DNA of 30,753 bases from a virus, in the IMG/VR virus record IMGVR_UViG_3300033148_005795, positions 1-30,753 of that record. One strand, given 5' to 3'. The notes under the pieces were generated by a model. That model saw only the letters and a list, made by a program, of their open reading frames with translations. It was not told where the DNA came from and made no database searches. Made by a program: the position numbers and the translations under genes. This document shows, in pieces, positions 2,928 to 30,290 of this stretch (within the stretch, counting starts at the first letter, position 1; each line of letters starts with the position of its first letter).

Positions 2928-2999
2928 GTTGGCCGTGGTGTAGGGGTCGCACGCCTGACTGTGGATCAGGAAGAGGGGGTTCGAGTCCCCTCGGTCAAC
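2928..2999 (+). tRNA. tRNA-His (anticodon GTG)
   Basis: A full cloverleaf can be drawn. The acceptor stem is TTGGCCG with CGGTCAA (one G-T pair), preceded by an encoded G at position -1 that faces C73, the identity element of bacterial tRNA-His. The D stem is GTGT/ACGC. The anticodon stem CCTGA/TCAGG encloses the loop CTGTGGA with anticodon GTG at 2961-2963. The T stem-loop is GGGGG-TTCGAGT-CCCCT. CCA is not encoded. It is the only tRNA found in the window. Phage tRNAs can supplement host codon supply or replace tRNAs cleaved by host defences. Confidence 0.93.
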
Positions 3000-3020
3000 C
3001 TTCCAAAGAAAGGAGCAGTA

Positions 3021-15613: not shown

Positions 15614-15685
15614 ACCCCGGTTCGAGTCCTTCCTTGGGATGGAATGCTCCCATCTCTGAGGTCGGGCCCGAGCCGGGGTTTTTTT
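15614..15685 (+). terminator. Long hairpin with T-run upstream of portal
   Basis: ACCCCGGTTCG at 15614-15624 pairs with CGAGCCGGGGT at 15669-15679 (11 pairs, one wobble), and seven T bases follow (15679-15685). The 44-base interior folds further: GATGG at 15638-15642 pairs with CCATC at 15650-15654. This is a plausible intrinsic terminator or attenuator, only 20 bases before the portal ATG. It could also be the 3' end of a small structured RNA. Confidence 0.6.
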
Positions 15686-15705
15686 GGTTCTGGAGCAAGC
15701 TGAGT

Positions 15706-17208
15706 ATGGCAGCCACCACAGGTAGTCGCGCCAAGAGTTACATCGAGACCAGCAAAGGCAAGACTGGTGCCGAAGCTGATGTCGGTACTCCGAACGCGTC
15801 GTATCTGGAAATGCTTGAGCGCTGGCAGCTCGTTAACGATCTCATGGGCGGCACCCCCGCTATGCGCGCCGCGGGGCAACTGTGGCTCACGAAGTTCCCC
15901 AACGAGAACACAGCTCTATACAAGGCTCGTCTCTACAAAGCCACCCTGTTCAACGTCTTCCTGGGCACCCTTCAGCACCTCGTCGGCCGTGTCTTCCGCG
16001 AACCCATCGAGCTAACCGAAGCGACCGACCCGAGAATCAAGAAGTGGGCCCAGGACATCGACCGTTCCGGCCGCGATCTGACAGCATATGGTCGCGACTG
16101 TTTCACCGATATGCTGGCGTTCGGGAAGTGCCATACAATGCCGGAGTTCCCCGACGCAGAGCGCGTGAAACGGGAGCTCGGCAGGACACAGCTAACGCTC
16201 GAAGATCAGCACGCCTACAGCCTCAGGCCGTATTTCGCCAAGGTCAACCCCATGAATCTCTTCGCCTGGGACGGGGCGATGATTGCCGGGGCCGAGGTAC
16301 TGGAGCGGATCCGGATCTATGAGTCGTCTTGGGTCCGTGAGGGTGAATGGGGCCAGGTGCAGCAAAAGACCATCAGGGTCGTCGAACCCAACTCCGTGAG
16401 AATTTACACCTGGAACGGTGAAGAGTGGGTCGCCGGCCAGGAGGACGTAACGACGCTAGGGGTGGTCAATCTCACCACGGGATATGCGAGGCGCACCGGG
16501 TTCCTTATGGCAGCGCCGACGCTTGAGGATCTGGCATGGCTCAACCGCAAGCATTGGGACAGCCAGAGCGATCAGGACAATATCCTCCACGTCGTGCGCG
16601 CCGCTATCCTGCTGGTCCAGGGCTTCAGCGAAAAGGAGATGGCCTACGTCAACGTGGGCCCATCGATTGCCCTGCGGACTGACAAGCCCCCCTCTGAATC
16701 GGCGGTCGGATACGTCGAGCACTCAGGCGAGGGCGTGGATGCCGGTCAGCGGTCCCTGGACAACCTGGTGAACCAGATGCAGGCCAGCGGCGCCGGCGAT
16801 CTCATGGTGTCCCAGCCAGGGACAGAGACGGCCACGGGGCGCTCGATCGAAGAGGCCAAGTCCCTCAGTCCTCTCGGTGCTGCCGCTCTGGCCCTGCAAC
16901 TTCATCTTGAGGAGAGTTTCAAGATGGCGGGGCGCTGGGAAGGCGACCTGGACATCTCCGTCGGCGTGCGAGTCAATACCGACCTGGGCACCTGGAGCGA
17001 AGTCACCAAGGAGATCGAGCTGCTGCAGGCCGACGCCACGGCCGGACGTATCAGTGACCGCGACTACCTCGACGAAGCGCAGCGCCGCGGTCTGTATGAC
17101 TCAGAGAAGGACATCGACGAGATGTTGGAGAGCGCCGAATCTGAGGCCGATAGCGACTTTCCGGCTATTCCCTTTGAGCCCACCCCAGAGCCGCCAGATG
17201 AAGACTGA
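15706..17208 (+). CDS. Portal protein, DUF4055 type (500 aa)
   Basis: The portal is the dodecameric ring at one capsid vertex through which DNA passes and on which the terminase docks. The product matches the DUF4055 portal-like family by its N-terminal region (about residues 27 to 105): RWQLVNDLMGG, AAGQLWLTKFP, YKARLYKATLFNVFLGTL, VGRVFREP. A helix-rich C-terminal part with QLHLEESF and WSEVTKEIELLQ is typical of portals, and it ends with an acidic tail. The ATG at 15706 is chosen over an in-frame ATG at 15634 because the latter would translate across the hairpin and T-run. The stop shares a base with the next start, as in many portal-MuF pairs. Confidence 0.85.
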   Translation: MAATTGSRAKSYIETSKGKTGAEADVGTPNASYLEMLERWQLVNDLMGGTPAMRAAGQLWLTKFPNENTALYKARLYKATLFNVFLGTLQHLVGRVFREPIELTEATDPRIKKWAQDIDRSGRDLTAYGRDCFTDMLAFGKCHTMPEFPDAERVKRELGRTQLTLEDQHAYSLRPYFAKVNPMNLFAWDGAMIAGAEVLERIRIYESSWVREGEWGQVQQKTIRVVEPNSVRIYTWNGEEWVAGQEDVTTLGVVNLTTGYARRTGFLMAAPTLEDLAWLNRKHWDSQSDQDNILHVVRAAILLVQGFSEKEMAYVNVGPSIALRTDKPPSESAVGYVEHSGEGVDAGQRSLDNLVNQMQASGAGDLMVSQPGTETATGRSIEEAKSLSPLGAAALALQLHLEESFKMAGRWEGDLDISVGVRVNTDLGTWSEVTKEIELLQADATAGRISDRDYLDEAQRRGLYDSEKDIDEMLESAESEADSDFPAIPFEPTPEPPDED

Positions 17209-18335
17209 TGCCGAGCGTAAACGACGAGCTGCTGGAGCGGACCATACGTCACCAGCTCTACCTCACGAGGCTGCAATCTCACGAGGCGGCGCGGGTACGG
17301 TCGTTCCTCAACACCGTCATTCCGGATCTACTCGAACAGGTACAGCGGCGCCTGGATTTGATAACGGCCCGAGGCTTCGACGCCGGGCCTGTGACGACGC
17401 AGCGGCTGCGCGACTTGAGTATAGCGATGGCCGAGTTGGTCGACCCACAGATGAGTCGTGCGACCCAGATGTTCACGAAAGAGATGGGACGAGTCGCAAC
17501 GCAGGAAGCGCAATGGGCCGCAGGCGTAGTCGAGCAGGTGATGCCGATCAAGGTCGATATGCTACTGCCAGCGCCGGAAACACTGCGGGCAGTAGTGACC
17601 ACCGAACCCATCGTGGGGCAGACGCTGGAGCAGTGGTACGGCAATCTGGGGGAGACCACACGCCGCAATGTGACGAAGGCCGTACAGCTCGGGGTGGTCG
17701 AGGGACAGACGACGCAACAGATCGTCCAGAGGCTGCGACAGGACGTGTTCGGGCTGGTCAAGGGGCAGAAGGCCAGGGGCATGACCCGACAGGCAGAGGC
17801 TATCGCCAGGACGGCCACGAACCATGTGAGCAACCAGGCCCGGGTGGCGACGTACCAGGCCAACCAGGACATCGTGAAGGGTATGCAGTGGGTCGCGACG
17901 CTGGACAGTCGCACAACGCCCATCTGTCAGCGCCTCGACCAGACCATGTACTATTTCGACCGCGGGCCCAGGCCCCCAGGCCCCCCAGCTCATGTCGGGT
18001 GCCGGAGCTCGCTGAACCCAGTCACAAAATCCTGGAGGGAGTTGGGCATACCTGCCAAAGAGCTCACTCCAGGGACTCGTGCTTCCATGAACGGCCAGGT
18101 CCCCGCTGGTACGACCTACAACTCGTGGTTGAGAGGTCGCGTACAGGCTGGCGACATGGATACGGTCAGAGAAGCACTCGGGCCTTCGAGAGCGAAACTG
18201 TTCGCTGCCGGGGGTCTCGATGTCACGTCGTTCACGGACCGACGTGGCCGGTTGTTCACGCTTGCCGAATTGCGTCAGAAAGAGCCCGACGTATTCGCCA
18301 GGTTCGACATCCGGGTTCCGAAACCTCGGAGCTGA
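17208..18335 (+). CDS. MuF-like minor head protein (375 aa)
   Basis: Phage Mu F-like proteins sit inside the head near the portal and are needed for head assembly or DNA ejection. Residues 1 to 190 are helical. Residues 196 to 268 carry the family signature: AEAIARTATNHVSNQARVAT, GMQWVATLDSRTTPICQRLD with C240, then GPPAHVGCRSSLNP with C265. The C-terminal 100 residues (TTYNSWLRGRV, then RAKLFAAGGLDVTSFTDR) are a common extension of this family. It directly follows the portal and precedes the scaffold, the usual order. Confidence 0.88.
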   Translation: MPSVNDELLERTIRHQLYLTRLQSHEAARVRSFLNTVIPDLLEQVQRRLDLITARGFDAGPVTTQRLRDLSIAMAELVDPQMSRATQMFTKEMGRVATQEAQWAAGVVEQVMPIKVDMLLPAPETLRAVVTTEPIVGQTLEQWYGNLGETTRRNVTKAVQLGVVEGQTTQQIVQRLRQDVFGLVKGQKARGMTRQAEAIARTATNHVSNQARVATYQANQDIVKGMQWVATLDSRTTPICQRLDQTMYYFDRGPRPPGPPAHVGCRSSLNPVTKSWRELGIPAKELTPGTRASMNGQVPAGTTYNSWLRGRVQAGDMDTVREALGPSRAKLFAAGGLDVTSFTDRRGRLFTLAELRQKEPDVFARFDIRVPKPRS

Positions 18336-18502: not shown

Positions 18503-19312
18503 ATGGCCAAAGCACTGATCACCGCCGAGGAACGCACCGCACTGCCTGAGATCCTTCAGGGAGAGTACAACCCCGAGCCGATCGACAAGGAGGGAGAACC
18601 GATCCATGGGTTGTTCAAACTCATCGTCGATCCGGTGCACGGGCTCGAGTTGGAAGACGTAGCCAGCCTCAAGACCACTGTCGGCGCTGCCCGCACTGAG
18701 GCGGACACCCTCAAGGCGGAACTCGGCAGATCGAAGGCTTTGGTCGAGACGCACAGTGCACGTGTTACCGAACTCGAGAAGATCGATCCGGAGATCGAGT
18801 CCGATCGTCTCGCTGAGCAGAAGGCAGAGAGTACCGTTCGGCAGATGAAGGAACAGCATCAGGCGGTGCTCGTTACAGAGCAGGAGAAGAGCAACAAGCT
18901 CCAAGCAGGACTCGAACGGGCCCTGATCAGGTCCGAGGCCATCGCCGCAATCGCAGAGCTCAAGGGGGCGCCCGATCTGCTCTTGAGCACCATCATGGCT
19001 CAGTGCCGGCTGAAGGAAACGCCACTAGACGGCGGTGAGACTGAGTATAGCGCCGTGGTTCTGGACGAAGCCCGGAATACCCGTATCGGGGACGCCAACG
19101 GCAAGGACATGACGATTGCTCAGCTCGTGGGGGAGATGAAGGCGAGCGACAAGTACGCGCGCGCCTTCGATGGCACGCAAGAGTCGGGGGGTGGGAAGCC
19201 CAGTGAGCGGGGACAGCCGCAGACGCCCCAAGCGCCCACCGGGGACAAGTCCAAGACGGAGAAGGTCAGAGCTGGCCTTCTGGCAATGCGCGAAAAACGA
19301 GGTGGAGCATAA
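18503..19312 (+). CDS. Head scaffolding protein (269 aa)
   Basis: Scaffolds guide procapsid assembly and are then removed. The product begins with a short conserved-looking region (ALITAEERTALPEILQGEY), continues with a coiled coil (about residues 55 to 135, e.g. AEADTLKAELGRSK style heptads), and ends in a Gly/Pro/Lys-rich flexible tail with a basic C-terminus, a layout typical of scaffolds that bind the capsid protein through the last helix. GGGAGG lies eight bases before the ATG. Position between MuF and capsid strongly supports the call. Confidence 0.75.
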   Translation: MAKALITAEERTALPEILQGEYNPEPIDKEGEPIHGLFKLIVDPVHGLELEDVASLKTTVGAARTEADTLKAELGRSKALVETHSARVTELEKIDPEIESDRLAEQKAESTVRQMKEQHQAVLVTEQEKSNKLQAGLERALIRSEAIAAIAELKGAPDLLLSTIMAQCRLKETPLDGGETEYSAVVLDEARNTRIGDANGKDMTIAQLVGEMKASDKYARAFDGTQESGGGKPSERGQPQTPQAPTGDKSKTEKVRAGLLAMREKRGGA

Positions 19313-19378: not shown

Positions 19379-20308
19379 TTGGCTAGTGTAACGCTCGTCG
19401 AATCGGCGAAGCTCAGTGTGAACGAGCTCGTAAGCGGGGTGATTGAAAACGTCATCACCGTGAACCAAATGTTCCAGATGCTGCCTTTCGAGGGCATCGA
19501 CGGCAACGCCCTGCAGTACACCCGAGAGAATGCCCTGGGTGCCGTGCAGCTCGGAACGGTAGGTACCGTGATCAGCGCCGGCAAGGCCGCTGCGACCTTC
19601 ACCAGCGTCACCAGCGCGCTGACGACCATCATCGGCGACGCCGAGGTGAACGGCCTGATCCAGGCCACCAGAAGCAAGGAGACGGACCAGACCACGACCC
19701 AGGTCGAGAGCAAGGCCAAGAGTGCTGGGCGCCAGTACCAGGACATGCTCATCAACCAGGACATGCTCATCAACGGGACCGGCGCAGGGCTGCAGTTCAG
19801 CGGACTGCTCAACCTGGTCGACGCCACCAAGCTGATCGCCCACAACGGCAATCTCTCCTTCGCCATCATGGACGAGCTCATCGACCTGGTGACGGACAAG
19901 GACGGAGAGGTCGACTACTTCGCCATGAACGGTCGGACGGTGCGTGCCTACCTGGCGTTGCTCCGAGGCCTCGGTGGGGCCGCCATCGGCGAGGTCATAA
20001 CGCTGCCGAGCGGACAGGATGTCCCCGGGTACCGTGGGGTGCCGATCTTCACCAACAACTGGATCCCGGTGAACCAGACGACCGGGAGTCTGACGAACAC
20101 CACCACGATCTTCGCCGGCAACTTCGACGATGGCTCCCAGAGCATCGGCATCTCGGGCCTCACAGCGGCCGAGGAAGCGGGGATCGTCATCGAGGACGTG
20201 GGTATCCACCAGACACGGGACGAGTACATCACCCGTGTGAAGTGGTACTGCGGTTTGGCCTTGTACAATCTCAACGGTCTGTCCGCGGCCAGCGGTGTGT
20301 ATGACTGA
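19379..20308 (+). CDS. Major capsid protein, HK97-like (309 aa, TTG start)
   Basis: This should form the head shell. It starts at TTG: AGGAGG ends seven bases upstream, whereas the ATG between them reads only four codons before a stop. N-terminal residues 1 to 30 are helical; residues 30 to 75 (MFQMLPFEGIDGNALQYTRE) and the later region (VDYFAMNGRTVRAYLALLRG, then DVPGYRGVPIFTNNWIP) resemble the P- and A-domains of HK97-fold capsids of similar length. It ends YITRVKWYCGLALYNLNGLS, typical of the C-terminal strand. Residues 121 to 132 are a perfect tandem duplication QDMLIN-QDMLIN. Two hairpins follow the stop codon. Confidence 0.85.
   Translation: MASVTLVESAKLSVNELVSGVIENVITVNQMFQMLPFEGIDGNALQYTRENALGAVQLGTVGTVISAGKAAATFTSVTSALTTIIGDAEVNGLIQATRSKETDQTTTQVESKAKSAGRQYQDMLINQDMLINGTGAGLQFSGLLNLVDATKLIAHNGNLSFAIMDELIDLVTDKDGEVDYFAMNGRTVRAYLALLRGLGGAAIGEVITLPSGQDVPGYRGVPIFTNNWIPVNQTTGSLTNTTTIFAGNFDDGSQSIGISGLTAAEEAGIVIEDVGIHQTRDEYITRVKWYCGLALYNLNGLSAASGVYD
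19739..19774 (+). repeat. Perfect 18-bp tandem duplication in capsid gene
   Basis: CAGGACATGCTCATCAAC occurs twice head-to-tail (19739-19756 and 19757-19774), keeping the frame and adding six residues (QDMLIN) to the capsid protein. The absence of any difference between copies suggests a recent event or an assembly artefact. Confidence 0.95.
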
Positions 20309-20424: not shown

Positions 20425-20724
20425 ATGGCCAAGAAGCTCTCCATGCCTTCAGAGGTGCGTGATACGCGTACCTCTGTTTCCCGTTCCAGATCCACCTCCA
20501 AACCGGCGCAGCCCAGGGTTCGCTCTGCAGCGGCGAAGGCGAGTGAGATCGTTGTCCCTTCGCCGAAAGAGGGGGAGACCGTCAGCCTGAGTATCAAGCG
20601 GGCTGAGGGAGGGCACATCGTCGAGCAGCACACCACGGACAAAAACTGGCGCACCAAATCGGAGCGCACCAGGGTGGTGACGGGCGACCCCAAGATCACA
20701 GTCGAGACCGAGACCGAGGAGTAA
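20425..20724 (+). CDS. Small capsid-proximal protein, 99 aa
   Basis: GAGAGAGGA precedes the ATG. The first 45 residues are basic, Ser/Arg-rich and probably disordered (VSRSRSTSKPAQPRVRS); the rest is a short beta-like domain (GETVSLSIKRAEGGHIVEQH, then RTRVVTGDPKITVETETEE). Position directly after the capsid gene suggests a head decoration or minor head protein, but no family is recognised. Confidence 0.5.
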   Translation: MAKKLSMPSEVRDTRTSVSRSRSTSKPAQPRVRSAAAKASEIVVPSPKEGETVSLSIKRAEGGHIVEQHTTDKNWRTKSERTRVVTGDPKITVETETEE

Positions 20725-20746: not shown

Positions 20747-21913
20747 ATGAAGACGTTTATCTCAACTGGACCGCTCGAAGGGCACACTGGCATGATCGCC
20801 AGTTGGATGTTCACGGACGGTCGCCTGGAGCTGCCCGATGACGATGCTGATGCTGCCAGCCGAATCCTGTGCAGATTCCACGGCTGCAAGATCCTGGAGA
20901 CCGGGGACATGATCGTTGCTATCTGGGGACCGAAGCGGGATGGCGCCTGGCGCACCAGAGCCCAGCAAGTCGCCCGGGAGCGATGGCCAGGGCGTGCCCT
21001 TCAAGTGAGGCATCCGAGCCAGTGGAAGCCCCTGTCCAAGGAAGAGGCAGCCCGCATTGACGGCGTCCTGGTCACCGAAGGCTGCGAACAGGTGGTCGAT
21101 GGCTGCTACGCCGGGGGCATCAGGCCAATACAGGTCGTCACCATTCCGCTCAACCCCGGCGTGCCGGATCCAGGCCGCAGTGCGTCCGAGACGCAGGGGA
21201 AATCGCGGACAGGAACGTACCTGGCAGACCCGAATGATGATGATCCGACCAACCCGGAAGACCCACCCGTTACGGATCCAGGGCCCGGGGCGCCTGGTGA
21301 GGTGCTGGCTCCGGCTGGTGTCCCCGCGACCGATCCGGACGCCGACGAGCGCGCGACGAAGACGGCGGTGGCAGAGCGATTCATCGAGAAGGACCTCGAA
21401 GAGATCGTCGGGCTGCTGAAGGACGGGGACATGGCAACCGTCCTGACGGACGAATTGCTTGAGGAAGCTCTCAAGATTGAACTGGCCTCTGGGGAACCGA
21501 GGGGAGAGGTGGTGGAGGTGTTGAGTCTGCGCGTGGGCAAGCCGGTCGACGCGGTGGTGGAAGCAGCTACCGGCGCGGTGGCCACCGACGAGACAGCGGA
21601 TAACGTCCCGGATGAGGCCCAGGTTGAGGCTCAGGTTCAGGATGGAGATCAGAGCCCGGACGCTGCAGAGCCTCCCGACGATAGCGGGAAGGTGACGCCG
21701 GCAACGGTCTCGCCAGAGACGTTCGTCAGGATGTCGGTACGTGCAGTGCGCGACGCGCTCGGGTCGGACGAGTACCGGCCTATCCTGACAGCCGACTTCC
21801 TGCGGGACGCGATTGAGGCAGAACAGGAGAAGGCCAGGCCGCGTGAGGACACGTTGCGGAAGCTGCGCATGCGCATGCACCGAGAGCAATCGAACCAGAA
21901 GACGTCACCCTAA
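20747..21913 (+). CDS. Capsid-proximal protein with shared N-terminal module (388 aa)
   Basis: Residues 1 to 50 (starting MKTFISTG, with FTDGRLELPDDDADAA and RILCRFHGCK) are clearly the same module as residues 1 to 50 of the glycosyltransferase at 25348. Residues 50 to 135 are a second small domain. A Pro/Asp-rich linker follows. Residues 216 to 263 and 327 to 376 are two copies of a helical unit with the pattern (V/I)LT..(L/F)L..A......PR......LR.R. This layout suggests a head-associated protein, for example a head-tail connector accessory or a scaffold for other proteins. Function unknown. The N-terminal module might be a capsid-binding domain; that is inference. Confidence 0.6.
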   Translation: MKTFISTGPLEGHTGMIASWMFTDGRLELPDDDADAASRILCRFHGCKILETGDMIVAIWGPKRDGAWRTRAQQVARERWPGRALQVRHPSQWKPLSKEEAARIDGVLVTEGCEQVVDGCYAGGIRPIQVVTIPLNPGVPDPGRSASETQGKSRTGTYLADPNDDDPTNPEDPPVTDPGPGAPGEVLAPAGVPATDPDADERATKTAVAERFIEKDLEEIVGLLKDGDMATVLTDELLEEALKIELASGEPRGEVVEVLSLRVGKPVDAVVEAATGAVATDETADNVPDEAQVEAQVQDGDQSPDAAEPPDDSGKVTPATVSPETFVRMSVRAVRDALGSDEYRPILTADFLRDAIEAEQEKARPREDTLRKLRMRMHREQSNQKTSP

Positions 21914-21939: not shown

Positions 21940-23232
21940 ATGAAGTGGTGCATACTCGGAATTGACGGCTACCTCGGCTGGACGCTGGCGTGCCATCTGG
22001 CATCCCTGGGAGAACAGGTGTGCGGAGTGGATGCGTTCCTTCGCCGGAAGTGGGTCGAACGCGTGGGCTCCAGATCGGTGATTCCCATTGCGTCGATGCC
22101 TGATCGGCTGGCGACGTTCGCTGCGGCGTTTCCTGATCACGGGCCGCTGCCGTTCACAGAGCTGGATCTGCTGGCGTACACGAAGATGCGGGACTTCCTG
22201 AAGGGGCAGGAGCCGGATGTGATCGTTCACCTGGCAGAGCAGCCGAGCGCGCCGTATTCGATGATCGACCAGGAGCCTGGCGCTGTGACGATCACCAACA
22301 ACATCGTCGGAACCTACAACGTGCTGATGGGGATGCGGGAGGTGTGTCCGGAGGCGCATCTGATCAAGATCGGAACGATGGGCGAATACGGAACCCCCGG
22401 TATCCCGATCCCTGAAGGGGTATTCCCTCCTCTTGCGCTTTGGGAGCACGGCACGCCAGAGGGGGAACAAGTATCAGGCTGTGAGCCGGTCTGGCCTTCG
22501 TTTGTCGGGAGGCTCTCCGGTCTCCAGTTCCCCCGCTGCCCAGGCTCGACGTACCATGCTGCCAAGTGCATGGACACCGTCATGGTTGAGTTCGCCTGTC
22601 GCATGTGGGGGCTGACTTCAACGGACATCATGCAGGGCGTTGTGTATGGGACAAGTATCCCGGCCTTCGATGACCCCGAGCTGCGCACACGGTTCGACGT
22701 AGACGAGTGCTTCGGCACCGCCATCAATCGCTTCGTTGCCCAGGCCATCATCGACGAGCCGATCACGCCATACGGGGCTGGCCACCAGAAGCGAGGCTTT
22801 CTGCCGCTTATCGACTCGATGCGGTGCATCACCCTGTTGGGCCAGAATCCACCTGCTGCTGGAGAGTACCGAACGGTCAACCAGCTCGAAGCCGTGTACG
22901 ACATCACCGACCTGGCGCTGAAGGTGCGGGCTGCAGGGAAGCGCGCTGGCCTGTCCCCGCGCATTCGCAACTGGACCAACCCGCGGACAGAGCAGGAGGA
23001 ACACACGTACGAAGTCATACACGACAAGCTGACGGCGCTGGGCTACGAGCCGACGCGGGACATGGACTCGGTGCTGGATGGAATGTTCGCCGATCTGCTT
23101 CCCCACAAGCGCCGCATCGAGAGCGTGGCGAAGCTCATTCGTCCGCGTACGAGATGGCAATCCATAGGACCATGTCAGGAAGAGCTGGGGCCGCTTGATG
23201 GACCGGAAGAGGCAGAGGCCGTAGAGGCATGA
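21940..23232 (+). CDS. sqdB: UDP-sulfoquinovose synthase-like enzyme (SQD1/SqdB family, 430 aa)
   Basis: The family makes UDP-sulfoquinovose from UDP-glucose and sulfite, using NAD. The sequence follows plant SQD1 closely: GIDGYLGW (Rossmann NAD loop, residues 7 to 14), IASMPDR, EQPSAPYSMID (100-110, SQD1 has EQRSAPYSMID), NNIVGTYNVL, KIGTMGEYGTP (143-153), Y205-x3-K209, QGVVYG and CFGTAINRFVAQAI. T146, Y205 and K209 correspond to the catalytic Thr, Tyr and Lys. A 20-residue insertion before the Tyr and an acidic C-terminal tail are differences. In bacteria and plants the product feeds sulfolipid; archaeal Agl3 feeds a protein glycan. Here it leads a cluster of glycosyltransferases and sulfotransferase-like genes, so glycan use is more likely. 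Next gene overlaps (ATGA). Confidence 0.85.
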   Translation: MKWCILGIDGYLGWTLACHLASLGEQVCGVDAFLRRKWVERVGSRSVIPIASMPDRLATFAAAFPDHGPLPFTELDLLAYTKMRDFLKGQEPDVIVHLAEQPSAPYSMIDQEPGAVTITNNIVGTYNVLMGMREVCPEAHLIKIGTMGEYGTPGIPIPEGVFPPLALWEHGTPEGEQVSGCEPVWPSFVGRLSGLQFPRCPGSTYHAAKCMDTVMVEFACRMWGLTSTDIMQGVVYGTSIPAFDDPELRTRFDVDECFGTAINRFVAQAIIDEPITPYGAGHQKRGFLPLIDSMRCITLLGQNPPAAGEYRTVNQLEAVYDITDLALKVRAAGKRAGLSPRIRNWTNPRTEQEEHTYEVIHDKLTALGYEPTRDMDSVLDGMFADLLPHKRRIESVAKLIRPRTRWQSIGPCQEELGPLDGPEEAEAVEA

Positions 23233-24665
23233 GCGCACCGCTCGTTACCGTTATCGTTGGGGTGCGCTTTCCTCCAGATGAACCAGAACGCAAGCGCAAT
23301 GCTTTGGCGACAATGCGTGCGCTCAACCGCCAAACGCTGCCGCGCGACCAGTACCGGCTCATCCTTGTCGAAGAGTCGGATAAGGCACGGTCGTCTGCCA
23401 AACTGACTGCGCTCGCGGACAAGACGTTCTGGCGCAAGAGCGATCAGCCGTACAACCGAGGCGCGGTATTCAACCACGGCGTGGAGAAGGCCGCGCTGGA
23501 TCCTGGCGACGTAGTCTGCCTGATGGACTCGGACCTGGTGGTGCCAGAGGACTTCCTGTCTTGCTGTGTCGAAGAGATGGCCAATAACGAAGTGATGATT
23601 GCCTTCGACGAGATTCGGTATCTCGATACAGAAGAGAGCGGTAGTGTATGCCGCGCTCTTGAAGACGACCACCCGAGTCTGCTGGAGTTCAGTGCCGATA
23701 GCAGCGATACCCTCAAGAAAAGGACCCGGAAGTTTCCTGGCGTGGGCGGGGCAATGTGGATTCGCGTCGACTTATACAACGAAATAGGCCGTCACGATGA
23801 AGAATACATCGGCTGGGGCTGCGAGGACTCTGACTTGTACCTGCGGCTCGAGCTGCGGCTACAGAATCCGATTCTCAGGGCTCATCTACAGGTAGCCCAC
23901 CTGTGGCATGTAAACGCCGAGCGTGGCGAGACGTATGAGCGCAATCTGCGGCGGTACAGGTACAAGCGAAAACCGAAGCTGAACTATGGGCAAACGAAGG
24001 ATCAGGAAGGCGTAATCTTTGCCGCGAACGGAGCGCGGGTCTTCCACTTCGGACCCAAGGCCCAGAAGTTCGGCCGATACTGGACAGTGATGACCAGAAA
24101 GAAACACACGCTGTCGGAGCCGGATATGCTTGCTGCCATTGGCAAGCTGAACCTGCAGGGGACATACGTTGACGTAGGGGCGCACGTGGGCAACCACACG
24201 GCGTTCTTTGCCGGGTGTTGTCCGAGTACGCGGGTTGTCGCAATTGAGCCGGACCAGGACCGCATGGCGGCCCTGATGGAAACAGTAACTCTCAATCGGC
24301 TCAAAGGTGTCAAAACGCTGCGAATAGGAGCGTGGTCAAAGCGCGGGTTTATGGTACCGACAAATACGCTGAAGTGCACATTCTCAGAAATATCTGTACC
24401 CCTGGCGGCTGAGGCTAGGACGCTGGATGAGGTTCTACAGAAAGACAAAGATGTCATTCTGATCAAGATTGACACGGAGGGTTCGGAGCGCGAGATATTG
24501 CTTGGGGCGCAGGACGTATTAGCCAGGTGTCAGCCGCACCTGTTCGTCGAGACGATCGACCCGCGCGAGAAGGGCAGAATCGGAAAGATGCTGCACGGCA
24601 AGTACCGATTCGTCGCCACCTACAACGCGACCCCAACGCATCACTGGGCGCCGATAGCAAGTTGA
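23229..24665 (+). CDS. GT2 glycosyltransferase fused to FkbM methyltransferase (478 aa)
   Basis: Residues 1 to 260 are a GT-A glycosyltransferase: VTVIVGVRFP strand, LILVEESD, D100-x-D102 in MDSDLVV (metal and nucleotide sugar binding), GGAMWIR and the GWGCEDSDLYLR motif (195-206), as in galactosyltransferase/GT27-like enzymes. Residues 300 to 478 are an FkbM-type SAM methyltransferase: VDVGAHVGN (314-322), IEPDQD (339-344) and IKIDTEGSE (412-420). FkbM enzymes O-methylate sugars or other hydroxyls, so one protein may add and then cap a sugar. It overlaps the SQD1-like gene by four bases. The acceptor is unknown. Its GT domain is similar to that of the 25348 protein. Confidence 0.82.
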   Translation: MSAPLVTVIVGVRFPPDEPERKRNALATMRALNRQTLPRDQYRLILVEESDKARSSAKLTALADKTFWRKSDQPYNRGAVFNHGVEKAALDPGDVVCLMDSDLVVPEDFLSCCVEEMANNEVMIAFDEIRYLDTEESGSVCRALEDDHPSLLEFSADSSDTLKKRTRKFPGVGGAMWIRVDLYNEIGRHDEEYIGWGCEDSDLYLRLELRLQNPILRAHLQVAHLWHVNAERGETYERNLRRYRYKRKPKLNYGQTKDQEGVIFAANGARVFHFGPKAQKFGRYWTVMTRKKHTLSEPDMLAAIGKLNLQGTYVDVGAHVGNHTAFFAGCCPSTRVVAIEPDQDRMAALMETVTLNRLKGVKTLRIGAWSKRGFMVPTNTLKCTFSEISVPLAAEARTLDEVLQKDKDVILIKIDTEGSEREILLGAQDVLARCQPHLFVETIDPREKGRIGKMLHGKYRFVATYNATPTHHWAPIAS

Positions 24666-24670
24666 GTCTG

Positions 24671-25351
24671 ATGGCCACACTCCCTACTGGCAAGCGCCTC
24701 ATCATCGGGCTCGGGACCGGGCGCTGTGGGACGGTGACGCTGTCTCGCTTCCTGAGTGCCCAGCAGGACGTGGATGTAAGCCACGAGGGCCGAACTATCA
24801 AGGCTCCTGTTGCCCTGCTGCCCTGGGAACGCAATCGGCGTTCCTTTGAGAAGGTGCTGGCGCGTGTCTATGAGTGCGGCGCCGGGGCAACCTACATCGG
24901 CAACGTTGGGTTCTACTGGCTGAACTATGTGCGCTGGTTGATGGAGGATGCCGGTAATCGAGTACGATTTATTTGCTTGCAGCGAGACCGCGCCGAGACC
25001 GTTGACAGTTTCCTGCGACGTTGCTACCGCCGGAATCGCGACCATTGGACACTGGACAGACATGAGCGCGGCTGCCAAGTGAGTCCGCTGGCCGACAAGG
25101 CTTTCCCAAAGTTCCCAGGAACGCTAAAGCAGGCTCTTGGCTGTTACTGGGACCAGTACTACAAGATTGCTGCCCAGTTGGTGGCTGAGTTTCCTGACAG
25201 CTTTCGCATCTTCCCGACTAGTGCACTCAATGACCAGTCGGAATACAGCGGCATTTTGGACTGGGCTCAGATACCGAAGGAACAGCGACGCACCTGGAAG
25301 CCACGGCGATTCAACTCGTGCCCGGCGTGGGGGAATTTGAAGAAGAGATGA
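24671..25351 (+). CDS. Sulfotransferase-like protein A (226 aa)
   Basis: Sulfotransferases move sulfate from PAPS to a hydroxyl. GLGTGRCGTVTLSRFL (residues 13 to 28) matches the 5'-phosphosulfate-binding loop, and VRFICLQRDRAETVDSFLRR in the middle matches the strand and Arg of the 3'-phosphate-binding motif. Residues near 155 (YWDQYYKIAAQLV) match the typical W..YY helix. The C-terminal part is similar to that of many bacterial sulfotransferase-fold proteins. A paralogue is at 28675. The ATG at 24671 is used because the gene starts five bases after the previous stop. The substrate is likely a glycan from the neighbouring enzymes; this is inferred. Confidence 0.7.
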   Translation: MATLPTGKRLIIGLGTGRCGTVTLSRFLSAQQDVDVSHEGRTIKAPVALLPWERNRRSFEKVLARVYECGAGATYIGNVGFYWLNYVRWLMEDAGNRVRFICLQRDRAETVDSFLRRCYRRNRDHWTLDRHERGCQVSPLADKAFPKFPGTLKQALGCYWDQYYKIAAQLVAEFPDSFRIFPTSALNDQSEYSGILDWAQIPKEQRRTWKPRRFNSCPAWGNLKKR

Positions 25352-27291
25352 AGACCTTCACACTTACAGGTGAGCAGCGGGGGTATACTGGCAAGGTTGG
25401 CGGTTGGGACTTTGAAAACGGATCCCTCGATCTGTCGGATGCAGACGGTGGGCTGGCTGAGAGGATTCTGTGTCGTTTCCACAACTGCAAGATGCAGGTG
25501 ACGGAGGATGGTGGTGGCAGCGCACGGCTCATTGTCGTCGTAGGCTTCAGGGTGAATGATGAACAGCCAGAGCGGGCCACCAATGCGTTGCATTGCCTGC
25601 GCGCGCTCGCTGACCAGTCGATTGAGCGGGACACATACCAGATCATTCTCGTCGAAGAAGACAAGAAGACGCGCTGTCCCAAGGAGCTGCTGGAATACGT
25701 AGACCAGCATGTGTTCTGTCAATCGACGGCAGCGTATAATCGGAGCCGAGCGTTCAACACCGGGGTGGAACATACTAAGGCAGGTGGCGATGATCTCCTG
25801 TGCCTGATAGATGCCGACATTCTTGTTGATCGCGAGTATCTAAGTCGCTTAGGACTGCACCTGCGTAATGCAGATGCAGTGTTGCCCTATCGGTCAGCTT
25901 TGTATCTACACCAACTCGCTACCCCCCTCGTTATTGAGGGACGGTTTGGGACTGACCCGGACCTGGCAGAGGCGGCCAGATATTCAGGCCGAACATGGGC
26001 GGCCTTGGGTGGGGCTCTGTGGATCAAGGCATCGTTGTACAAGAACCTCGGCGGCTATGACAAGCGGTTCGTAGGTTGGGGCTGTGAAGATCGGGATATG
26101 TGGCACCGTCTCAATGCGGTCACGGAAGTAGAAAGAGTGCCAAGGATAATGTACCATCTGTGGCACCGGAGAAGTGACCCGGGACCTGAGCACAAAGTGA
26201 ATCGGAAGCTATTGAAGAAATTGCACCCCGGTATGCGCGGCCGGCAGAGCAACAAGACAGGCGTCACCGTAGGAGAGAAACCAGAACGGCCACCCCGGCG
26301 AGAGGGGAAACTGCAGATACTCTGGCTTACCATCAACCGCGATCATCGGGTTGCGCGCATCTTCCAGCCGGTCATGGAGCAAATCAGGCGGCGTGAAGAT
26401 GTCACGGTGTACTGTCACGACCGGTTCCGTTGGGATTTCTCAACCGTTATGGGACCGAACCCCAAGCCACAGCCACCGGAGCTTGATGTTGCCTGGGTTA
26501 ACGAGTTCGACATTGTATTCACCGATGCGGTTTTCGGGTACCTCGGCGACGACTGGCCCGCGGTGACCGCGTATAAGTGCTGCCTGATAGAAGATTGCCA
26601 CTGTGAGATGCCGGAGCGGTACGTCAGGCAAGCGTACGAGCAATTCGGGTTCGACGCTTTCTTCTACCGCTACCAGGAAGGCTTCGAGAAGCACCATAGC
26701 TATGTCGATGTTCCGACACGATGGCTGCCGCACAGTATCGACCCGTTAATCTTCCGTGTAGGAGATGCCCACAGTTTTACCGAAAGGGAGCATACAGCAC
26801 TGTCGGTAGGAGTAGACGTACAGGCGACCTATCCGCTGCGGTTTCAAGCGAGTCGAGAGCTGAGGGGCCTGGATGGCTACAAACGGATTCAACGACCAAT
26901 AGAGAACGATGGGAACGCGTGGCCCGTAGGGGAGGACTATGCAAACCTCCTCCGTGCGTCAAAGATCGTTGTGAGTGGGTGTAGTATCTACCATTACCCA
27001 ATCCTGAAGACGTTCGAGATCCCTGCCTGCGGCGCCGTCCTGGCTTGTGATGCGATTCCCGACTTAGACGAACTCGGGTTTGTGCCAGAAGTGAACTACC
27101 TCCCGTTGAAAAAAAACGTCCCTGGTCATATCCGCGAAGTGATAGAACACTGGCTGGCAGAAGGTCAGCGAGATGCACTTGAGACAATTGCGAAAGCTGG
27201 CACCAAACTCATACTGAATAAACACACCGCCGCCATTCGTGCTGGGGAACTATCGGCTCAGCTCAGAGAACTATTAGAGGTGAAGACATGA
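25348..27291 (+). CDS. Three-part glycosyltransferase: shared module, GT-A and GT-B domains (647 aa)
   Basis: Residues 1 to 50 (MKTFTLTG, FENGSLDLSDADGG, RILCRFHNCK) are the module also found at the N-terminus of the capsid-proximal 20747 protein. Residues 60 to 300 are a GT-A domain like that of the 23229 protein, with D155-x-D157 in LIDADI and GWGCEDRDMWHR (243-254). Residues 321 to 647 are a GT-B domain (ILWLTINRD, WLPHSIDP, HYPILKTFEIPACG) closely related to the whole 29337 product, reminiscent of CgeB-type glycosyltransferases. The ATG is preceded by GAAGAAGAG and overlaps the preceding stop. Two transferase domains could add two sugars in turn. The N-terminal module may direct the enzyme to the head; this is inference. 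Confidence 0.8.
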   Translation: MKTFTLTGEQRGYTGKVGGWDFENGSLDLSDADGGLAERILCRFHNCKMQVTEDGGGSARLIVVVGFRVNDEQPERATNALHCLRALADQSIERDTYQIILVEEDKKTRCPKELLEYVDQHVFCQSTAAYNRSRAFNTGVEHTKAGGDDLLCLIDADILVDREYLSRLGLHLRNADAVLPYRSALYLHQLATPLVIEGRFGTDPDLAEAARYSGRTWAALGGALWIKASLYKNLGGYDKRFVGWGCEDRDMWHRLNAVTEVERVPRIMYHLWHRRSDPGPEHKVNRKLLKKLHPGMRGRQSNKTGVTVGEKPERPPRREGKLQILWLTINRDHRVARIFQPVMEQIRRREDVTVYCHDRFRWDFSTVMGPNPKPQPPELDVAWVNEFDIVFTDAVFGYLGDDWPAVTAYKCCLIEDCHCEMPERYVRQAYEQFGFDAFFYRYQEGFEKHHSYVDVPTRWLPHSIDPLIFRVGDAHSFTEREHTALSVGVDVQATYPLRFQASRELRGLDGYKRIQRPIENDGNAWPVGEDYANLLRASKIVVSGCSIYHYPILKTFEIPACGAVLACDAIPDLDELGFVPEVNYLPLKKNVPGHIREVIEHWLAEGQRDALETIAKAGTKLILNKHTAAIRAGELSAQLRELLEVKT

Positions 27292-27902
27292 TGCACCGTG
27301 CAAGTCTCAACCACTGGCTCAATGAGGACAACCCCGTGCCGCGCGAGCTAAAGCGGCTCATGGAATTGCGCTACAACTTTGCCGTCCAGCACGTCAGCGG
27401 GGTAGTCTACGATGCCGGGTGTGGGCATGGCTTCGGTACCAATATCCTGGCCAATTCGCCGTCAGTGACGCAGGTAATAGCACGAGACATTGACGACGAA
27501 GCCGTCGCCATCGCGGGAACCCAATTGCAGAGCCGCTATAACGTCGATCTGGGGGTGATGGATATTGAGGCCGAACCAATTCCCCGGGGCGTTGATTACG
27601 TTGTCTGCACTGAGGTGATCGAGCACCTTCAGAACGCCGGTGCATTCATACGGAAGATCAAGCGGAGCACGTGCGCTGGGGCTGTATTGTCTTGGCCCCT
27701 AGACCGGTCCGTCAACCCTTTCCACTTGCGTAAATTCGAGGCAGGAGAGATGGAGAGGCTCATGGGGGGCTGGGATGGCGAGGTTCGCCAAATGGTCCAA
27801 CGAGTTCCCACACGCAACAAGCTGCGCCTGTATGAGTTGGGAGTGTTCCACCGTCGCACACGCAAAGCAAGCGAGGTAAGTCATGGCACTGTCGAAAGGT
27901 GA
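27288..27902 (+). CDS. SAM-dependent methyltransferase A (204 aa)
   Basis: Class I Rossmann methyltransferase. VVYDAGCGHGFGTN (residues 39 to 52) is motif I, ARDIDDEAV is the acidic motif II, and DYVVCTEVIEHL is the typical post-II segment. Similar proteins methylate sugars, quinones or small molecules. The 30277 product is a paralogue (VVYEPGCGHGYGT, ARDTDANAI). The gene overlaps the glycosyltransferase by four bases, suggesting joint expression. The target is unknown; a glycan hydroxyl or carboxyl is most consistent with context. Confidence 0.8.
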   Translation: MMHRASLNHWLNEDNPVPRELKRLMELRYNFAVQHVSGVVYDAGCGHGFGTNILANSPSVTQVIARDIDDEAVAIAGTQLQSRYNVDLGVMDIEAEPIPRGVDYVVCTEVIEHLQNAGAFIRKIKRSTCAGAVLSWPLDRSVNPFHLRKFEAGEMERLMGGWDGEVRQMVQRVPTRNKLRLYELGVFHRRTRKASEVSHGTVER

Positions 27903-28662
27903 GTTTCTGCGAATGTACCCCAATCTTCCGGCGTTACCGGAAGTAGAGGTCCCGCTCGACTGGAACACCCACGAGTTCTACACGGCGTCAGGGGACAATC
28001 CAGATATAGACACAGCGGATGCCCCGGAGGACGTCTGGGACGCTGGTGGTGAGTGGCCAGGCTACGTCGGCGCTGGTGATGTGACCGTTGTCTCTAACAG
28101 CGGGCAGGACGCAGCAGGAGGGACCGGGGCGACAGGCACACGGTTCTGGGGCACGAACGATGCCGGCGTAATCACCACCGGCGCTGTGACACCGACTGGG
28201 GTCGTTGCTGCGGCTAGTGGTGTCGATCTCATCGCAGTATTTGAGGCCTGGGTCAATGCCGCAGGCACAGATGAGTCCAACGCCGGTACGTTGACATTCA
28301 CCATCGGCGGTGTGACGGTCGCGGAGATTCAGCCTCTTGCAGGTCGCGCTCAGTCCGCTATCCGCCCGGTGCCGCCAGGGTACCAAGGTTTCATCATTGG
28401 AGTCGAGGTATCGGCTTCGGAGATCGGGACGGGCGTTGGGCATACGGTGGCTGAACTGAAGACAGCAGTCACGGGGAGCGCGTGGCAGAGGCGACTGTCC
28501 ATGAGTATCGAGGGCACTGGTGGCCCGTACATAGCCCCGCTCCGAGTTGCCATACCTCTCCAAGCGGATGCAGTGGCGAAGGTTTCATGCGCTCAGGTCA
28601 TGTCCAATAACATCCATGTGAGCGCTCTCCTGACGATGCTGCTGGTGGCACACCAGAACTAG
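27883..28662 (+). CDS. Probable virion surface protein, beta-rich (259 aa)
   Basis: The product has a Gly/Ala/Thr/Val-rich, strand-and-turn composition. DAPEDVWDAGGEWPGY (residues 45 to 60) followed by VTVVSNSGQDAAGGTGATG strongly resembles the start of phage structural proteins with a 'DVWdgGG...vS.s..D...GTGa.t' pattern found in decoration or fibre proteins. The rest is a likely beta sandwich (GTLTFTIGGVTVAEIQPLAG, then VPPGYQGFIIGVEV). It overlaps the methyltransferase by 20 bases and lies inside the modification island, so it could be the protein that is glycosylated. No signal peptide, which fits a virion protein. Role inferred. Confidence 0.6.
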   Translation: MALSKGEFLRMYPNLPALPEVEVPLDWNTHEFYTASGDNPDIDTADAPEDVWDAGGEWPGYVGAGDVTVVSNSGQDAAGGTGATGTRFWGTNDAGVITTGAVTPTGVVAAASGVDLIAVFEAWVNAAGTDESNAGTLTFTIGGVTVAEIQPLAGRAQSAIRPVPPGYQGFIIGVEVSASEIGTGVGHTVAELKTAVTGSAWQRRLSMSIEGTGGPYIAPLRVAIPLQADAVAKVSCAQVMSNNIHVSALLTMLLVAHQN

Positions 28663-28674
28663 GACCAGAACGAT

Positions 28675-29355
28675 ATGAGACTTCTCTTCGGTTGCGGTTC
28701 GGGACGGTGTGGCACAAAGTCGCTATCGAGGCTGCTACAGGCTCAGGGCGCCAAAGTATCTCATGTGATGGCCCACTGCCCTCCTGGAACTGGCTATCCT
28801 GGCTTCGACCTCAAGCTGCCGTGGGACGGCGTTGACAATCCCATCTTCCGCGAGGCCGTGTTCCGCATCTGCAGCCGAGATGGGGACGTGGCCGGCGATG
28901 TTTCGCCGTTCTGGCTCAACTACGTACCGCTAATTCTCGCTGAGTATCCCGACTGCCGGGTGATCTGCCTTCAGCGCGAGCGTGGTAAGTGCATAGCGTC
29001 ATTGCTGGAAATGCAAACCGGGATCGGACGCAATGACTTCTCTGAGGATGTCGGCGAGGATACGAGGGCAGCCAGGCTGACGCCGAAGTTTCCGCTGAGC
29101 CGAGAGGACGCCACGGCACGCTTTTGGGACTGGTACTACACTCAGGCGCAGCTTATTCAGAGCGCCTATTCTCGACGCTTCCGGATCTACCAGACGGAGA
29201 TGGTCCTCAACAACCCACACTATCAGATGGGCATGCTGATGTGGGCAGGCTTTGACGTCCCGGTGGTCGAACCGGGTATTCATTGCAATACGATGGTTGA
29301 GATTCGAGCAAAACGTGCGCGCAAGGCAGCGGGGCTATGCGAATCCTCTGGTTGA
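28675..29355 (+). CDS. Sulfotransferase-like protein B (226 aa)
   Basis: GCGSGRCGTKSLSRLL (residues 6 to 21) is the phosphosulfate-binding loop and VICLQRERGKCIASLLEM the second binding motif, both parallel to the 24671 product. The two proteins have the same length (226 residues) and share DWYYTQAQLI / DQYYKIAAQL, so they are duplicates that have diverged. ATG lies eight bases after AGGA. The end overlaps the next gene by 19 bases. Substrate unknown; probably a glycan or a peptide side chain in the same system. Confidence 0.7.
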   Translation: MRLLFGCGSGRCGTKSLSRLLQAQGAKVSHVMAHCPPGTGYPGFDLKLPWDGVDNPIFREAVFRICSRDGDVAGDVSPFWLNYVPLILAEYPDCRVICLQRERGKCIASLLEMQTGIGRNDFSEDVGEDTRAARLTPKFPLSREDATARFWDWYYTQAQLIQSAYSRRFRIYQTEMVLNNPHYQMGMLMWAGFDVPVVEPGIHCNTMVEIRAKRARKAAGLCESSG

Positions 29356-30290
29356 CAATCGACCGCGCAACGCGAATCCAGCTCATCCACCAGCCTATTA
29401 TGGAGGAGATGAAGAAGCTGGAGGACGTGACCATCTATTCACATGCGCGGTGCTCTCGAGAGGCGCCCGAGGGTGAACAGATACGCTTGCTGGGCGCTAC
29501 CTGGGTAAACACGTTCGACGTGGTATTCACTGACGCAGTATTCGGGTATATGTGTGAGGAGTGGGACAAGGTAACGGTCCTGAAGTGCTGTTACCTCCTG
29601 GACCTTCACGCCCTGCCATTTATCAAGCAGGTCTGTCTCAACTTCAACTTTGATGTCTTCTTCCACCGGACACGTGCTGCATGGCGAAAGGTTTCCCGCA
29701 AGTGGGGCCAGTACGGTATTTGGTTGCCGCATAGCTTTGACCCCGTGATATTCCACCCATTGGCAACAGCAAAGAAAGAGTATCAGGTCTTGTCCATAGG
29801 TGAGATCGCTGGTTCGTTCTACCCGGTACGCCAACAAGCTCATCTAGAGATGAAAGGCACAGAGGGGTATCGCCGCATTGAGAGACCTGCACGGAAGGCA
29901 CTCAAGCCGTGGCCGGTTCGCGATGACTACGCTGAGCAACTCGGTATGGCCCGTATCGCCATCAGCTCGTGCTGCACCAAAGGCTATCCAGTGATGAAGA
30001 CTTTTGAGATACCTGCCTGTGGAACAGCACTCGCAACGAATACGATTGCCGAGTTTGCGGACCTGGGGCTCGTCGAGGGCGTAAACTACATCGGGCTGGA
30101 CGACCGGTCGCGCGGGGCGATCAGGAAAAAACTGAAGTGGTGGCTGGCTCCGCAGCAGGAGTCCGCGCTTGCAGCACTAACCGCGGCTGGCACGAAGCTG
30201 GCCCACGAGCGCCACACGGCGGCGGTGCGGGCGCGCGAGCTGCAAGTTCATCTACGGAGACTACTGGAGGAACGTAATGGCAAAGGCTAG
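29337..30290 (+). CDS. GT-B glycosyltransferase (317 aa)
   Basis: It corresponds to the GT-B half of the 25348 protein along almost its full length: RILWLTIDR / QILWLTINR, FDVVFTDAVFGYM / FDIVFTDAVFGYL, WLPHSFDPVIF / WLPHSIDPLIF, YPVMKTFEIPACGTALA / YPILKTFEIPACGAVLA and KHTAA / RHTAA. The lower-case family resemblance is to CgeB-type group 1 glycosyltransferases. The missing GT-A and shared modules show that only the GT-B portion was copied, or that the 25348 protein gained its extra parts. It ends 14 bases inside the next gene. Confidence 0.8.
   Translation: MRILWLTIDRATRIQLIHQPIMEEMKKLEDVTIYSHARCSREAPEGEQIRLLGATWVNTFDVVFTDAVFGYMCEEWDKVTVLKCCYLLDLHALPFIKQVCLNFNFDVFFHRTRAAWRKVSRKWGQYGIWLPHSFDPVIFHPLATAKKEYQVLSIGEIAGSFYPVRQQAHLEMKGTEGYRRIERPARKALKPWPVRDDYAEQLGMARIAISSCCTKGYPVMKTFEIPACGTALATNTIAEFADLGLVEGVNYIGLDDRSRGAIRKKLKWWLAPQQESALAALTAAGTKLAHERHTAAVRARELQVHLRRLLEERNGKG

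Follow-up and report, generated by a model that had tools for sequence, protein, structure and literature searches.

Sulfoquinovose is a major organosulfur sugar of photosynthetic membranes and of some archaeal glycoproteins. Characterised UDP-sulfoquinovose synthases include SQD1/SqdB of sulfolipid biosynthesis and Agl3 of Sulfolobus acidocaldarius, which serves protein N-glycosylation. The SQD1/Agl3 enzymes carry an [ST]MG signature (PMC8987622), and mutagenesis of Agl3 yielded an inactive R101A and a less active T185A variant (PMC4388408). In 2020, a Mu-like virus of the Cariaco Basin was described as encoding a putative UDP-sulfoquinovose synthase, which was read as modulating or helping host N-glycosylation under pressure; the sections of that report drawn on here present a single case and describe neither a glycosyltransferase cassette nor a residue analysis (PMC7785012). 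Phage glycosyltransferases modify capsid and tail-tube proteins of the mycobacteriophages Che8, Corndog and Myrna, and no sulfosugar synthase is described for these systems (PMC12363180, PMC11256854). In a literature search of partial coverage, we came across no account that combines an SQD1-type gene with a phage glycan cassette.

The window, by which we mean the whole stretch of DNA that was analysed, comprises 30,753 bases; it is a linear virus record of IMG/VR and probably a fragment. Compared by description with the Cariaco report, it likewise holds a virus-encoded SQD1-type gene for which a role in glycosylation is proposed (PMC7785012). The gene (21940-23232, + strand) is an intact ORF of 430 aa starting with ATG. 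A sequence-only reading had named it an SQD1 relative, and the ORF limits as well as all quoted motifs were confirmed (EQPSAPYSMID, GTMGEYGTP, YHAAK as the YxxxK motif, and QGVVYG). In a sequence search of PDB chains the sole strong matches were SQD1 entries (E 7e-86 to 4e-85), the next families reaching only E ~2e-4, and the aligned identity to SQD1 is 41%. Across 161 relatives, 87 columns reach a conservation of 90% or more, and the protein agrees with 86 of them. The structural comparison that the same reading had suggested agrees with this assignment: an AlphaFold model built from a 60-sequence alignment (pLDDT 90.9) retrieved SQD1 first in Foldseek (E 1e-48, next 2e-22) and superposed on SQD1 in VIA-align with Z 57 and 1.4 A over 384 residues, compared to Z 35 for the next family. 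A search of the BFVD structure library with the model returned ordinary dehydratases and epimerases only. Sequence and predicted fold firmly place the ORF in the SQD1/Agl3 family, with homology over the full length and a predicted SQD1 fold that differs from those of GalE and RmlB. An identity as GalE-type epimerase or RmlB-type dehydratase was rejected on the same E values and Z scores.

The window protein has kept the GxxGxxG NAD motif (G7/G10/G13), the [ST]MG signature (T146-M147-G148) and, as had been claimed, the catalytic Thr, Tyr and Lys (T146, Y205, K209). By alignment, His95, Thr144, Met145, Glu147 and Tyr148 of Agl3 correspond to H97, T146, M147, E149 and Y150, and Ser180, Tyr182 and Lys186 to S203, Y205 and K209; H206 is kept too. 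Among these, the residues needed in Agl3 besides the catalytic Thr, Tyr and Lys (His95, Met145, Glu147, Tyr148, Ser180) are all retained. However, Arg101, which is present in SQD1, SqdB and Agl3, is replaced by Pro102, a difference that the sequence-only reading had missed: its assignment to an SQD1/SqdB-type synthase stands for family, predicted fold and the Thr/Tyr/Lys set, but not at this position. The alignment of Arg101 with Pro102 is confirmed by the mutagenic primers used for Agl3, which put Arg101 in EQ-R-SAP (A-E-Q-A-S-A-P in the mutant; PMC4388408). In 161 relatives, a set ranked by likeness to the window protein so that shares are no census, the column holds Pro in 130 (~80%), Arg in 30 and Ala in one, and no other column separates Pro-bearing (P-type) from Arg-type rows completely. 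The window protein further differs from Agl3 by Ala (A208) in place of Thr185, by a longer loop, and by being encoded in a tailed phage, whereas family, predicted fold, the equivalents of His95, Met145, Glu147, Tyr148, Tyr182 and Lys186 and a glycan rather than lipid context are common to both. The loop from GTMGEYG to SxYHxxK counts 51 residues compared to 29 in nearly all Arg-type enzymes, and T204 and A208 occur in no other of the 161 relatives. We know of no P-type enzyme that has been assayed.

Trees of 90 and 43 rows were built for the SQD1/Agl3 family. Both show Arg at position 101 in the SQD1/SqdB clade and in an Agl3-like clade of Sulfolobales and Thermoplasmata, and Pro elsewhere. 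Two changes suffice to explain the switch between Pro and Arg, and the AU test rejects a tree in which all Arg-type rows form one clade (p 4e-100), which weakens the notion that P-type proteins are a different enzyme family. The window protein groups with two viral proteins (L002, L007) and with proteins of Aminicenantes and Geothermarchaeum (support 99/94) in a supergroup on the Agl3 side; SQD1, from which it also differs by the Arg101 replacement and the lack of any visible lipid context, lies across a well-supported branch (100/99). A position among ordinary epimerases or dehydratases, against which the sequence-only reading had wanted its proposal checked, was not seen, since the protein falls inside the SQD1/Agl3 family. 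The first tree holds 85 distinct viral sequences, 79 of them P-type and six Arg-type. The two clades that flank the P-type enzymes contain characterised UDP-sulfoquinovose synthases; this position, inside neither clade, favours, but does not prove, the same chemistry. The curated cut-off of the NCBIfam equivalog model for UDP-sulfoquinovose synthase (NF041015, 575 bits) is not decisive here. The window protein scores 449 bits. SQD1 itself, with 477, and an SqdB-like protein from Sinorhizobium, with 332, fall short of the cut-off as well, while an Agl3-type Thermoplasmata protein (602) and one P-type archaeal protein (607) exceed it. The cut-off therefore fits Agl3-like proteins only, and the argument that a score below it speaks against a UDP-sulfoquinovose synthase was dropped.

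Judged from residues and phylogeny, the window enzyme most likely works like a UDP-sulfoquinovose synthase, and sulfonation by P-type enzymes is plausible. We do not list it as a proven synthase, because it lacks the Arg that the characterised enzymes have in common and that Agl3 requires. Our best explanation, held tentatively and at a little below even confidence, is that a P-type SQD1/Agl3 enzyme would provide UDP-sulfoquinovose or a close nucleotide-sulfosugar for a phage glycan pathway. It is somewhat unlikely that the P-type enzymes are instead non-sulfonating dehydratases or epimerases with an SQD1 fold, such as UDP-hexose 5,6-dehydratases, giving an unusual deoxy- or ene-sugar, and that sulfur would come from sulfotransferase-like proteins. 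This would fit the fact that the one residue fully separating P-type from Arg-type enzymes is the Arg essential in Agl3 (PMC4388408), and that SQD1/Agl3 enzymes behave as 5,6-dehydratases when sulfite is lacking (PMC8987622). Moreover, PAPS reductase (PF01507), a source of sulfite, was found in none of 49 virus records with an SQD1-like gene; sulfite, if used, is therefore probably host-derived. However, Agl3 R101A lost all activity, so that the mutation does not single out sulfonation, and both the position of P-type enzymes between two sulfonating clades and the retention of 86 of the 87 conserved family columns argue against a non-sulfonating enzyme.

The neighbours of cellular P-type genes do not point to a single function. 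In Anaerolineae loci (L082-L085 and others), the P-type gene lies between genes for a semialdehyde dehydrogenase and a histidinol-dehydrogenase-type protein. The Pfam family of the latter also includes the sulfopropanediol dehydrogenase HpsN, through which there could be a link to sulfonates. Prephenate dehydratase is a further neighbour in Anaerolineae, and epimerases and GT2 proteins are found next to P-type genes elsewhere.

Upstream of the SQD1-like gene, and on the same strand, the window encodes a terminase large subunit (8049-9779, phrog_2, E 2.6e-20), a portal protein (15634-17208, phrog_145, E 4.6e-95), a head morphogenesis protein (17208-18335, phrog_241, E 1.7e-113), a head scaffolding protein (18503-19312, phrog_206, E 1.3e-20) and a major head protein (19379-20308, phrog_212, E 6e-63). 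The terminase gene contains an insert of 135 aa (nt 9294-9698) that is intein-like (CFRGDTLV ... VGN|S), lies just ahead of the SDAVGYY motif and is backed by a weak match to an NCBIfam intein-containing family. A tRNA-His gene (anticodon gtg) is present at 2929-3000. The Pseudomonas phage PaMx11 (NC_028770, Mesyanzhinovviridae) has the same order of terminase, portal, head morphogenesis, scaffold and major head genes, and its major head protein shares 66% identity with the one encoded in the window. The head-tail adaptor gene of PaMx11 starts ~0.8 kb past the major head gene, where sugar genes fill more than 9 kb in the window. The SQD1-like gene had been placed directly after the head genes, which holds with two ORFs intervening between it and the major head gene (20425-20724 and 20747-21913). 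The second ORF (+ strand) encodes a post-capsid protein that is acidic and of low complexity past an N-terminal domain of 54 aa. This domain (20747-20908) recurs at the N-terminus of a glycosyltransferase fusion further downstream (25348-25509) with 50% identity and a score of 148 compared to a shuffled maximum of 44, and has no match among named phages. The common domain hints that the transferase and the virion-region protein may share a binding partner.

The genes following the SQD1-like gene are all on the + strand and show stop-start overlaps in an operon-like arrangement. The first encodes a fusion of a GT2-type glycosyltransferase and an FkbM methyltransferase (23229-24665; PF05050 E 4.9e-17, PF00535 E 6e-8, TIGR01444), whose start overlaps the stop codon of the SQD1-like gene (ATGA). 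It is followed by an ORF (24668-25351) that appears sulfotransferase-like from its P-loop-like N-terminus (GLGTGRCGTVTLSRFL) and had no significant Pfam match. The glycosyltransferase fusion that carries the 54-aa domain (25348-27291) combines it with a GT2-like part (PF02709) and PF13524, and has relatives in seven viral loci with an SQD1-like gene. Next come a SAM-dependent class-I methyltransferase (27288-27902, PF08241 E 4.3e-12) and, in the middle of the cassette, a possible virion protein (27883-28662, phrog_8198), which shares ~31% identity with a protein of Synechococcus phage S-SCSM1 annotated as a virion protein. A sulfotransferase-like protein (28675-29355) matches PF13469 (Sulfotransfer_3) above its cut-off with E 5.8e-7 and has a relative in another virus record (L031:7021-7665); its model, made without an alignment, reached a pLDDT of only 38.5 and gave no usable fold. 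A PF13524 glycosyltransferase (29337-30290, Pfam match), with relatives in the vicinity of the SQD1-like gene in L002, L004, L007, L010/L011 and L076, and a methyltransferase-like ORF truncated at the end of the contig (30277-30753), of the same cluster as the class-I methyltransferase, complete the cassette. The cassette of glycosyltransferases, methyltransferases and sulfotransferase-like proteins described in the sequence-only reading was thus recovered for glycosyltransferase, FkbM, class-I methyltransferase and one Sulfotransfer_3 protein, whereas the ORF at 24668-25351 is sulfotransferase-like by its N-terminus. The glycosyltransferases are encoded in the phage genome itself, as expected of a virion-glycosylation system.

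The sequence-only reading knew of no described phage system of this type. This can no longer be maintained in view of the Cariaco virus and of the 110 and 190 IMG/VR stretches (overlapping sets) encoding relatives that were found with alignment queries. The relatives surfaced only in this way, as a scan of IMG/VR with the window protein alone gave nothing. Searches of named phages yielded no match to the window protein (tblastn, 50,697 INPHARED phages) and only distant dehydratases with the N-terminal half of SQD1. Since the gene occurs in many uncultured viruses but in none of the named phages searched, it has for the most part escaped annotation. The expected association with glycosyltransferases recurs in phage late operons. 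In L011, portal, head morphogenesis and major head genes are followed by glycosyltransferases, an epimerase and the SQD1-like gene; in L076, the SQD1-like gene lies between two glycosyltransferase genes ahead of the head-tail adaptor Ad1; and in L004 and L007 it precedes the tape measure gene. The site between capsid and tail genes is used in independent contigs. Members of the PF13524/GT2 cluster of the window are located no more than seven genes from the SQD1-like gene, both in the window and in eight other viral loci, and GT2 domains are present in 36 of the 49 virus records with an SQD1-like gene, a share that has no background rate for comparison. SQD1-like genes also occur in very large virus records (L003, 227 kb; L009, 301 kb; L174, 241 kb), surrounded by other sugar-related genes in L003 and L009.

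A glycan role of the cassette is likely. For substrate, sulfonation, product, acceptor and benefit to the phage we infer the following scheme. UDP-glucose would be oxidised at C4 by the P-type enzyme with its tightly bound NAD and dehydrated to the 5,6-ene, to which host-derived sulfite would be added at C6, and re-reduction of C4 would release UDP-sulfoquinovose or a close nucleotide-sulfosugar. The co-transcribed phage glycosyltransferases may then transfer the sulfosugar to an acceptor, and the methyltransferases and sulfotransferase-like proteins may decorate it to a phage-specific acidic glycan. The acceptor would be a virion protein or, less likely, the host surface. That the cassette alters the host cell surface during infection instead of the virion, by receptor masking, superinfection exclusion or an O-antigen-like conversion, we regard as unlikely. 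Phage sugar genes commonly serve serotype conversion, and some relatives adjoin NeuB-like/NeuA-like genes, which are typical of surface glycans. However, the cassette sits among head-tail genes in several phages, a glycosyltransferase and the post-capsid protein have a domain in common, and no flippase, polymerase or membrane anchor was recognised in the window. The NeuB-like/NeuA-like (nonulosonic acid) genes, clusters 19 and 11 named from sequence, were seen near the SQD1-like gene in L060, L164, L172, L173, L177, L179, L181 and L211.

A different setting was found in ~40 other viral contigs (L042, L019, L017, L020, L013 and ~35 more), where the SQD1-like gene occupies a constant position within a replication module made up of apparent ATPase and Cas4-like genes, a dCMP deaminase gene (PF00383), the SQD1-like gene, a small ORF, and ParB/methyltransferase-like and family-A DNA polymerase-like genes. 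From this neighbourhood, a link of these genes to nucleotide or DNA modification is possible. For the window, a sugar nucleotide serving hypermodification of DNA or nucleotides is very improbable despite the deaminase and apparent polymerase genes in those contigs, since its SQD1-like gene belongs to a structural operon that also encodes FkbM and glycosyltransferases of protein or glycan type, and no such replication gene is near. Host DNA mis-assembled onto phage DNA, or a non-functional passenger, is hardly credible even for a metagenomic fragment without a sequenced close relative in which G+C falls from 0.62 to 0.55-0.58 past the SQD1-like gene, given one strand throughout with stop-start overlaps, a GC3 of 0.745 for the SQD1-like gene compared to 0.75 for the portal gene, the same arrangement in independent contigs, and an intact ORF with conserved sites. 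The concern about a host-phage chimera raised in the sequence-only reading is met by these observations together with the head genes on the same strand, and the SQD1-like gene is firmly regarded as native to a tailed phage.

In its widest form, which we consider rather unlikely, our proposal is that diverse tailed phages, including the Mesyanzhinovviridae-like phage of the window, would themselves convert UDP-glucose and sulfite into a sulfonated, methylated and possibly sulfated virion glycan, by means of a P-type synthase subfamily whose active site is unlike that of SQD1/Agl3 and which possibly makes a new sulfosugar. If phages make sulfoquinovose or a relative for glycans of the virion or the host surface, a carbon-sulfur sugar would join phage chemistry, and a source of sulfosugars beyond photosynthesis would be added. 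The P-type enzymes, with Pro at the position of Arg101, provide a natural set for asking which residues govern sulfite addition.
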